Positions 32,881 to 37,481 of a stretch of 64,000 nucleotides of DNA are shown piece by piece. The stretch is from Piscirickettsiaceae bacterium (GTDB lineage Bacteria > Pseudomonadota > Gammaproteobacteria > Nitrosococcales > Methylophagaceae): positions 62,001-126,000 of the forward strand of contig JABSQO010000004.1 of the NCBI GenBank assembly GCA_013215775.1, in the 5' to 3' direction. The translations under genes were made by a program, and so were the position numbers. The notes under the pieces were generated by a model. It was not told where the DNA came from and searched no databases. It worked only from the letters and a program-made list of their open reading frames with translations. The number at the start of each line of letters is the position of its first letter. The first letter of the stretch is position 1.

Positions 32881-33531
32881 CTACAAGTCGTTTAGAAAAT
32901 GTTCAACTTGTTGCAGATTGTCAATAATCGCTTGAGGTTGGCAGGCTCGGAGTGTCGTTATGTCATGAGCGCCATGGCTAATGGCTAAACTGTCTGCTCC
33001 TGCATTATGAGCCATCTGTAGATCATATTCAGTATCTCCAATCATCAGCGTTTCTTTGGCCGTAACACCAAAATAGTTGATCAATTCTTCTATCATCTGA
33101 GGATGAGGTTTGGAATGGCATTCATCAGCACAGCGTGTGGCGTGAAAATAGCTTTCTAAATCCGTGCTTTTTAATACCTTGTCTAGACCACGACGACTTT
33201 TACCCGTGGCTACGCCTAGAAAATAATTTTGTTCAGAGAGCCGTTTAATAAGATTATAGGCATGATCAAATAAGGGTGAGTCGATAGGATTGTTTAACCA
33301 TGTTTGCCGATAGGTATTTGCTAAGTGCTCAACAGTCTCAAGACTAGCATCAGGATAAAGTGCAACAATCGCTTCATTAAGACCAAGACCAATGATGTGA
33401 CTGATCGCGGTGTCTTCTAACGGTGGTAGAGACAATTGTGTAATGGCTTGTTGCATGCAGTTGACGATATGACTAGTCGAGTCCATTAGCGTGCCATCCC
33501 AATCAAATACAATTAGTTGATAGCGACTCAT
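32881..33531 (-). CDS. HAD family phosphatase (Gph-like)
   Basis: The 216-residue HAD-IA hydrolase has motif I VFDWDGTLMDS, motif II VATGKSRRGLD, and motif III/IV MIGDTEYDLQMAHNAG. Sequence style matches phosphoglycolate phosphatase-like proteins commonly encoded beside rluC. Its ATG overlaps the rluC stop by 4 bases, so the two are translationally coupled. Exact substrate is unknown. Confidence 0.9.
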   Translation of the reverse strand: MSRYQLIVFDWDGTLMDSTSHIVNCMQQAITQLSLPPLEDTAISHIIGLGLNEAIVALYPDASLETVEHLANTYRQTWLNNPIDSPLFDHAYNLIKRLSEQNYFLGVATGKSRRGLDKVLKSTDLESYFHATRCADECHSKPHPQMIEELINYFGVTAKETLMIGDTEYDLQMAHNAGADSLAISHGAHDITTLRACQPQAIIDNLQQVEHFLNDL

Positions 33532-34487
33532 GATGATTCTTTTAATTTTTGAAGGACACTTTGTAACTTCTCTGGCAAAGGTGCTTCAAGTAATAGTTCT
33601 TGTCCGCTAGTTGGATGGCGAATTCCTAGTTTCCATGCATGTAAAAATAATCGTTTTAAGCCAAATTTTTTCATGTCTTTATTGAAATTGCGTTGACCAT
33701 ATTTATCATCGCCAGCGACGGGATGATTCATATGCGCAGCATGAACACGGATTTGATGGGTGCGGCCGGTGTATAGAACCACCTCTGTTAACTGTGCTTG
33801 TGGAAAAGTTTCGATGGGGATAAAAACTGTTTTAGCTTGTTTTCCATTAGGATCGACACGCACCATGCGTTCACCAGATGACACAGTATTTTTCTGCAAT
33901 GGTTGCTCAACTAAACGTTGTTGGCCAGTCCAACTGCTTCTTAGTAGGGTGAGATAACGTTTATTGAGATCATGATTGATCATTTGTTGTTGTAGATTAA
34001 GTAAAGCTTTACGACTTTTCGCTAGTAATAAACAACCAGATGTATCGCGATCAAGTCGGTGCACTAATTCGAGATAAGGCAGTTCTGCACGAATAATGCG
34101 TAATGCTTCAATGATGCCTTGTTTAATATTGCTACCAGCATGAACTGCTATGCCAGGGGGTTTATTAAGAACTAATAAGTCGTCATCTTCGAATAAAATA
34201 CTGTCAGTCAGTTGTTGTGATAAATGATCGTTAACGGTAGTTGGAGTCGTGTTTTCTGCGGTACGAAGTGGGGGTATACGAACGGTATCGCCGAGTTGTA
34301 TTTTGTATGTTTGTTTGATCCGACCTTTATTAACACGCACTTCACCTTTGCGAATGGCACGATAAATACGACTTTTGGGCACCCCTTTTTCTAAGGACAG
34401 CAAAAAGTTATCAATTCGTTGCCCAGCATTCGAGGCTGTGATGTTAATAAATTGAACAGGATTAAGCTTGGTATCGCTATTTGTCAT
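33528..34487 (-). CDS. rluC: 23S rRNA pseudouridine(955/2504/2580) synthase
   Basis: The 319-residue protein has an N-terminal S4 RNA-binding domain (QRIDNFLLSLEKGVPKSRIY, then RAIRKGEVRVN). The RluA-type catalytic domain follows, with the nucleophilic Asp in LVHRLDRDTSGCLLL near residue 141, and then HQIRVHAAHMNHPVAGDDKYG. The rluC-rne divergent arrangement is conserved in gammaproteobacteria and supports RluC over other RluA paralogues. Confidence 0.95.
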   Translation of the reverse strand: MTNSDTKLNPVQFINITASNAGQRIDNFLLSLEKGVPKSRIYRAIRKGEVRVNKGRIKQTYKIQLGDTVRIPPLRTAENTTPTTVNDHLSQQLTDSILFEDDDLLVLNKPPGIAVHAGSNIKQGIIEALRIIRAELPYLELVHRLDRDTSGCLLLAKSRKALLNLQQQMINHDLNKRYLTLLRSSWTGQQRLVEQPLQKNTVSSGERMVRVDPNGKQAKTVFIPIETFPQAQLTEVVLYTGRTHQIRVHAAHMNHPVAGDDKYGQRNFNKDMKKFGLKRLFLHAWKLGIRHPTSGQELLLEAPLPEKLQSVLQKLKESS

Positions 34488-35059
34488 AAAAAGATCGATT
34501 TCTATTGCTGATAGTGCAATGGACTGTTATATTTAGAAGTTGGTCTGTTTGTTAGTGGTATCAGTATACCGACTTTTAATTAATATGGCCTGAAAATAGC
34601 GTCGTCGCTCCTTCAAGATAAGAAGTTGATGCGGCAGAACGCATGAACAAGTTTTGAACGACACGTTTAACATAGGTTAGGCGTGATAGGTGCTCATTAT
34701 AGAGCATATAGTTAAATGGTTCCCACGTCTTGGCAATAACAATAAATAATGCACAAGACAGGACAACAGCAAGTAATTAATAAAAATGTAGGTGTCCGGC
34801 AGCTACACCATGGGGTGAAGCGCTGATACTGAGATATGTGTCGCAAATAATGTTGTGACGTGATTTTTTCGGAATACTACTGGCTAGTACAAGATCACAA
34901 AAATAGCTAAAAGCAATGTGTTAACAGAAAGATACAAATACATTGTGACTATTAATTGCGGATAGGCAATTTGTCCTGTAATCGTCACTAAATTGATGAT
35001 GCATTGTCCTTGGAAACAAGGATGAACCAGCGTGTGAACCTCCAATAAGAGGTTAGTGC
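34488..35059 (+). promoter_or_regulatory. Long intergenic region holding the rne leader
   Basis: This 572-base gap between divergent rluC and rne has no convincing coding frame. By analogy with E. coli, whose rne mRNA has a leader of about 360 bases that RNase E itself recognises, most of it is probably untranslated rne leader plus two divergent promoters. The last 55 bases hold two clear hairpins (listed separately). A GGTGT/ACACC pairing near 34791-34809 may be another stem. I cannot place the promoters with confidence. Confidence 0.65.
35007..35054 (+). promoter_or_regulatory. Paired hairpins at the rne translation start
   Basis: The first stem, TCCTTG (35007-35012) and CAAGGA (35017-35022), has a GAAA tetraloop. 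The second, AACCTC (35037-35042) and GAGGTT (35049-35054), has a six-base loop. The second stem contains the GAGG ribosome binding site 6-9 bases before the ATG at 35060, so folding would hide it. This fits feedback control of RNase E, but the mechanism here is inferred. Confidence 0.7.

Positions 35060-37481
<2,422 letters not shown>

Follow-up and report, generated by a model that had tools for sequence, protein, structure and literature searches.

In many bacteria the rate of RNA turnover is governed by RNase E. How this enzyme feeds back on itself is known mainly from Escherichia coli, where the element in the rne 5' UTR was reportedly the subject of work by Diwa (2000) and Schuck (2009). 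The relevant part of PMC3997798 treats the autoregulation of rne via this 5' UTR as established. The same text presents the E. coli lysC riboswitch, in which exchange of the ribosome-binding-site (SD) pairing is coupled to the exposure of RNase E sites and the action of RNase E is tied to the OFF state. In Synechocystis, RNase E cuts a U-rich tract in the rne 5' UTR, and autoregulation has been proposed (PMC10989929). The portion of PMC6736130 at issue deals with rplM and not with rne. An rne leader of the kind presented here was not found in the one literature collection searched, as judged by titles and the openings of abstracts.

The window, the whole stretch of 64,000 nt that was analysed, comes from a 2.2-Mb genome (G000), which its relatives place among the Gammaproteobacteria. 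Positions 34488-35059 make up the entire spacer between rluC and rne (Table 1), and the element under study lies in the 5' leader of rne, which is also the location of rne5. A fold of a 633-nt stretch gave a z of -7.6, from 20 shuffles only. At the limits used, rne was matched in 58 of 59 relatives, and at a threshold of E<=1e-40 it was matched in 53 of the 57 genomes of the window's family. The divergent rluC is found upstream of rne at 51 of these 53 loci, with the contigs of G061 and G019 running out, and the rluC-rne spacer of the family loci is about 487-686 nt long. G019, which begins within rne at a contig end, was excluded, leaving 52 family leaders (51 distinct rows), among which that of G061 comprises 398 nt only. 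As a separate observation, the RNase E encoded in the window has an extended run of serines in its C-terminal part, and a mechanical antisense ORF overlies this run.

Comparison with the Rfam rne5 model (RF00040), which had been proposed when the leader was read from its sequence, gave no match in the window. At gathering thresholds, no Rfam family at all matched the window, and a relaxed search (E<=10) of 34400-35120 returned three chance matches, none of them to rne5. Among the 59 relatives, searched with stricter filters, RF00040 gave 14 weak matches in 11 genomes, none of which was over the cut-off and none of which lay at a contig position listed for rne. In the controls, 4 of 14 matched, E. 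coli included, and one was over the cut-off; the gathering score is 180 bits, and a truncated portion of the leader from E. coli reached 147.5 bits. By this model test, the leader is not a member of rne5.

Table 1. Features of the rluC-rne region, in window coordinates
Feature	Sequence or product	Position	Strand	Remark
rluC		33528-34487	-	divergent from rne
Promoter-like site	TTGCTG (34505-34510), 17-nt spacer, TG.TATATT (-10 at 34528-34533)	34505-34533	+	conserved
Possible 5'-terminal stem-loop	AAGUUGGU...ACCGACUU	34537-34575	+	RNAalifold consensus, 27 genus leaders
P1, 5' strand	GGUUC (34718-34722), C 34723 mismatched, CACGU (34724-34728), UGG (34731-34733)	34718-34733	+	strongly conserved block in unguided alignments of 52 leaders; putative anti-anti-SD
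A/U-rich stretch		34734-34752	+	in the domain closed by P1; candidate RNase E cutting site
P2, 5' strand	CAGGAC	34759-34764	+	pairs with 34973-34978
P3, 5' strand	GUAAUUAAUA	34773-34782	+	pairs with 34950-34959
Inner hairpin	CAAUGUG...UACAUUG	34914-34945	+	site of UAAGAC in 25 of 27 genus leaders
P3, 3' strand	UAUUAAUUGC	34950-34959	+	pairs with 34773-34782
P2, 3' strand	GUCCUG	34973-34978	+	pairs with 34759-34764
GAAA-tetraloop hairpin	UUGUCCUUG-GAAA-CAAGGAUGA	35004-35025	+	from the fold; just upstream of the SD hairpin
P1, 3' strand	CCAGCGUG.GAACC	35027-35040	+	AACC (35037-35040) common to P1 and the SD hairpin
Anti-SD arm	AACCUC	35037-35042	+	fold and family conservation
Ribosome binding site	GAGGUU	35049-35054	+	3' arm of the SD hairpin; fold and family conservation
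rne	RNase E, 812 aa	35060-37498	+	

The sequence-only reading had placed two hairpins in the last 55 bases before rne, the second with GAGG in its 3' arm, and had supposed that access to the start is gated. Both hairpins are present as described, and the final 55 nt fold at -17.1 kcal/mol, a stability reached by none of 200 shuffles (z -3.6). The SD hairpin itself (AACCUC-CAAUAA-GAGGUU, 35037-35054) is unremarkable in the single sequence, as 97 of 2000 shuffles scored as high and a score of at least 13 was obtained at 5 of the 25 window starts with an SD-like motif, rne included. It is nevertheless found in all 52 rne leaders recovered from the family, with arms of 5 to 7 pairs, which supports the supposed gating. 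In A1, an alignment of the 52 leaders made unguided and holding 51 distinct rows, 98.4% of the 306 cells were paired, compared with 24-55% when the partner strand was slid. We therefore regard the SD hairpin as real because of its conservation in the family and not because of its single-sequence score. Since the SD arm is nearly invariant, double changes do not occur, and covariation is silent for or against this hairpin. In G008, G014, G017, and G023 the two arms lie 38 nt apart instead of 6, with their complementarity kept. A possible lower stem, CGUGU/GCAUG, would take in the AUG below the hairpin. The GAAA loop next to it is not conserved; within the genus, a stem at its position is kept with changed letters, with 20-24 of the 27 genus leaders pairing per position. 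The stems thus recur in relatives, which was one of the two points on which the earlier reading had made itself depend, and the ribosome binding site is predicted to be sequestered by the anti-SD arm, as in a translational switch working by SD exchange.

A scan for the SD hairpin was positive in 51 of 51 full-length family leaders, although in G074 it picked a second, overlapping arm. The same scan was applied to 88 leaders from outside the family (79 loci among the matches listed, eight others, and E. coli); 4 of these scored at least 13 and 11 gave any score, in a scan that requires an SD motif, which many of the 88 do not have. Of 63 genomes belonging to the order, 28 contain the exact pattern GAACCTC-loop-GAGGTT-ATGAA, every time at the start of rne; it was absent from all six sister-family genomes.

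A distant partner of the anti-SD arm, at 34718-34733, had escaped the earlier reading, and it turns a static block into a candidate switch. This partner and 35027-35040 form the helix P1, which spans about 310 nt and has an energy of -16.0 kcal/mol in the window. It emerged unprompted in RNAalifold (GGUUC.CACG with CGUG.GAAC) from an unguided alignment of 27 genus leaders, and in the unguided alignments of all 52 leaders its 5' block is co-aligned, being off by about one base in a few. P1 ranks 15 or better among the sites of its own leader in 42 of the 52. A coarse scan of the window gave the rival partner CCAUGGGGUGAAGCGCUGAUAC (34808-34829) at -17.3 kcal/mol, compared with -16.0 kcal/mol for P1, the stretches compared being different. 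CCAUGGGGUGAAGCGCUGAUAC can pair with CAGCGU..AACCUCC across the anti-SD arm and could be a second competitor or part of a pseudoknot.

On A1, 85.6% of the P1 cells were paired, compared with 24-76% in slid versions, the highest of these being the slide of +2; A1 is shifted by two bases in G030, G035, and G070, which counts against P1 there. Double-changed cells numbered 24 against 9.2 in shuffles, and the covariation score was 0.279 against 0.230, neither value being reached in 500 shuffles. The slid versions held 2 to 22 double-changed cells, and that of -2, with 22, comes near the observed 24. Shuffles did as well in how many pairs had a double change (5 vs 4.3) and in how many pair types occurred (15 vs 14.3). 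When the P1 strands of 44 strand pairs were swapped, the energy changed from -15.9 kcal/mol for own strands to -13.3 kcal/mol, a difference equalled in 0 of 20,000 permutations; within genus g1 (24 pairs) the count was 16 of 20,000, and within genus g3 (16 pairs) 0 of 20,000. These shuffles and swaps leave the relatedness among the leaders in place. In a phylogeny-preserving null over all column pairs, an R-scape-like test written in Python that has little power, no P1 pair was significant and hardly any pair was, the best in the whole alignment having an E of only 0.23. The covariation that had been called for across relatives is therefore seen for P1 against shuffles and is not significant under the phylogeny-preserving null. 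The sequences thus contain an alternative helix that could capture the anti-SD arm, with covariation support, as would be expected of a switch, though the phylogeny-preserving test was negative, a slid control came close, and the shared pairs vary by wobble only.

Both strands of P1 are expected on the same transcript. In 50 of 51 leaders scanned, a TTG-type -35 with 3-4 of 6 consensus letters is followed, after a 17-nt spacer, by TATA(T/G)T after TG., an extended -10 that lies at -476 to -558 from the start codon; in G031 the scan gave other promoter-like sites only. The transcript would thus start near 34540, giving a leader of about 520 nt, and this conserved site far upstream would place the P1 5' strand well inside it. 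The start would also lie upstream of the hairpins, as the sequence-only reading needed, as far as can be told from a promoter-like site that precedes all the elements. A generic promoter scan omitted the site, whose -35 is under the scan threshold, and returned three others, fewer than in shuffles. The matches of this generic scan include 34683-34712 and 34823-34851, no more than in shuffles, and one of them is downstream of the P1 5' strand. The possible stem-loop at 34537-34575, where 19-27 of 27 genus leaders pair at each of 6 consensus pairs, would stand at the extreme 5' end of the transcript, followed by a U-rich run; its role could be 5'-end protection or attenuation.

P1 and the SD hairpin are unable to form both in full, which makes them a candidate ON/OFF switch. 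We consider it very probable that the two competing helices are real and regulatory in form. In the OFF state, the anti-SD arm would be paired with GAGGUU and the ribosome binding site hidden. In the ON state, AACC and the preceding CCAGCGUG.G would be captured by GGUUC.CACGU..UGG about 310 nt upstream, freeing the site. P1 would close a large folded domain that contains P2 and P3, and an intact leader would keep P1 and expose the ribosome binding site. One RNase E cut in the exposed A/U-rich stretch of the domain would separate the P1 strands, because they flank the domain on either side. The SD hairpin would then be the default fold and the message, left untranslated, would be degraded, so that plentiful RNase E would lead to little new RNase E, a feedback at the start site. 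That the leader is such a two-state translation switch, in which cutting of the P1 domain by RNase E lets the SD hairpin close, stands for us at an even chance as a full explanation. The choice of RNase E cleavage or binding as what flips the helices falls somewhat short of that; it is suggested by the gene controlled, the published feedback in E. coli, the proposal for Synechocystis, and the A/U-rich stretch beside P1, where A+U averages 72% in the 52 leaders compared with 59% over the aligned leaders as a whole. More tentative still is the notion of the leader as a sensor of nuclease activity, in which P1 would hold only while the domain of about 310 nt is uncut, and one cut would flip the start from open to hidden with neither ligand nor repressor.

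In modelled folds, the mean probability that the SD is unpaired was 0.12 when folding was free, 0.40 when P1 was forced, and 0.01 once the leader had been cut in silico behind the 5' strand. Exposure was higher with P1 forced than after the cut in 52 of 52 leaders, partly by construction, and even with P1 forced the SD was on average paired more often than unpaired.

In the window's genus, a hairpin resembles GCAAUGGCGUAAGACGUAUUG of the E. coli rne leader, which we take to be the published hp2, and the 25 of 27 genus leaders that carry UAAGAC, a motif also present in the E. coli leader, have it there. This likeness, together with the E. coli precedent as given in the cited part of PMC3997798, favours a feedback by decay only, in which leader-bound RNase E would cut the message and the SD hairpin would merely keep ribosomes sparse so that decay responds. 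However, the window and G005, its nearest relative, keep the stem at 34914-34945 but lack UAAGAC, and in other genera the motif is absent or stands in other surroundings (G031, G032, G033, and G076). Such a feedback would also leave unexplained why the anti-SD arm keeps its complementarity to a site 310 nt away, and we regard it as rather unlikely.

A static architecture, in which the SD hairpin would form together with the outer half of P1 (CACGU/GCGUG) and the leader would hold rne translation at a constant, lowered level, with no switch, has to be weighed against the behaviour of the shared strand. The free folds of G016, G032, G034, and G078 hold five pairs of each helix. In constrained folds of 430-nt leader pieces, with fewer pairs imposed for misaligned rows, the SD hairpin was favoured by a mean of 2.9 kcal/mol (range -5.6 to 13.1; 52 leaders) and the P1 state was lower in energy in 10 of 52, so that most leaders are more stable with the SD hairpin formed. 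Moreover, the four shared GGUU/AACC pairs change to G-U only and show no double changes; this fits a strand under double constraint and is not independent proof of competition. The case for competition between P1 and the SD hairpin consequently rests on complementarity, conservation, and the compensating pair alongside. All four shared bases are paired in the P1 duplex in 47 of 52 leaders. Against the static architecture, GGUUC adjoins CAC, or lies one base away from it, in nearly all leaders, and all 51 of the 51 distinct rows have a standard pair at 211-678. At the base beside the C of GGUUC, the 52 duplexes have a mismatch in 33, A-U in 6, U-A in 3, G-C in 2, C-G in 2, and a pair past a bulge in 6. 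The compensating pairs (U-A in G006, G007, and G027; A-U in G003, G011, and G070; G-C in G002 and G024; C-G in G030 and G035) extend the helix into GGUUC, suggesting that GGUUC belongs to one helix with the remainder of P1; the A-U of G010, G018, and G031 stands in a shifted or diverged register. We therefore consider a purely static arrangement distinctly unlikely.

Within the domain closed by P1, 83.2% of the P2 cells and 86.7% of the P3 cells were paired, with double changes at 3 of 6 and 5 of 10 pairs, respectively. The three helices together had 48 double-changed cells against 23.0 in shuffles, and one slid version had 50. In the window, a short ORF (ATGAACCAGCGTGTGAACCTCCAATAA, 35022-35048, ATG at 35022) overlaps the anti-SD arm and the P1 3' strand; as a functional part it was dropped because the ATG is ATA in G005. 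The size of the domain, and the use of the same SD exchange by translational riboswitches, would suit a riboswitch-like domain in which one state is favoured when a small molecule, a ribosomal protein, or CsrA binds to P2, P3, and the inner hairpins. Yet genera g1 and g3 have very different inner domains, which is unlike a ligand pocket, and the window has no Rfam match at gathering, which makes this reading improbable. A temperature switch of the type seen in RNA thermometers or cold-shock leaders, with warming or cooling shifting the balance of P1 and the SD hairpin, would profit from the shortness of the SD hairpin and from two states that are, as modelled, close in energy, but is highly improbable, since nothing in the analysis links rne to temperature in the family and a long leader with P2, P3, and further hairpins exceeds the needs of such a device.

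The reach of P1 beyond the family was examined in eight leaders, six of them from the sister family, each compared with six mononucleotide shuffles. Seven of the eight had no P1-like helix beyond all of their shuffles; L120 alone beat its own six (-16.8 vs -12.1 to -14.6). R1, which models the sequence of the P1 5' block, had matches in 47 of the 57 family genomes, most of which are the sources of R1. When 369 genomes sampled from the class were scanned with R1, three family members matched, at least one family member (G013) was missed, and the partial matches in G191 and G220 were weak. Because 12 candidates per genome were scored, absence of R1 elsewhere is weakly supported.

With the exchange between P1 and the SD hairpin, one can test cleanly whether a distant upstream cut controls translation through the loss of a long-range helix, and a conserved rne leader that is built differently in another gammaproteobacterial family would illustrate how the same homeostasis may be reached by a different route. 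Compared with the E. coli rne 5' UTR (RF00040), the window likewise has an rne leader, a divergent rluC, and a spacer that is 572 nt long in both, with yceQ annotated inside that of E. coli K-12. By the same scan, E. coli has no SD hairpin, and its feedback acts via decay in the account of PMC3997798 cited here, whereas in the window the start site appears to be gated by a long-range exchange. With the lysC riboswitch, the window leader shares competing anti-SD and anti-anti-SD strands; it differs in having no known ligand domain, in controlling the nuclease itself, and in a P1 that spans about 310 nt. An action of RNase E on its own leader is proposed both here and for Synechocystis, where the cited portion of PMC10989929 invokes early termination and stability and describes no SD exchange. 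It is plausible that the leader is a variant of the E. coli RNase E feedback, as had been suggested at first sight; it appears to operate as a translational switch does, and its purpose is probably that of rne5.
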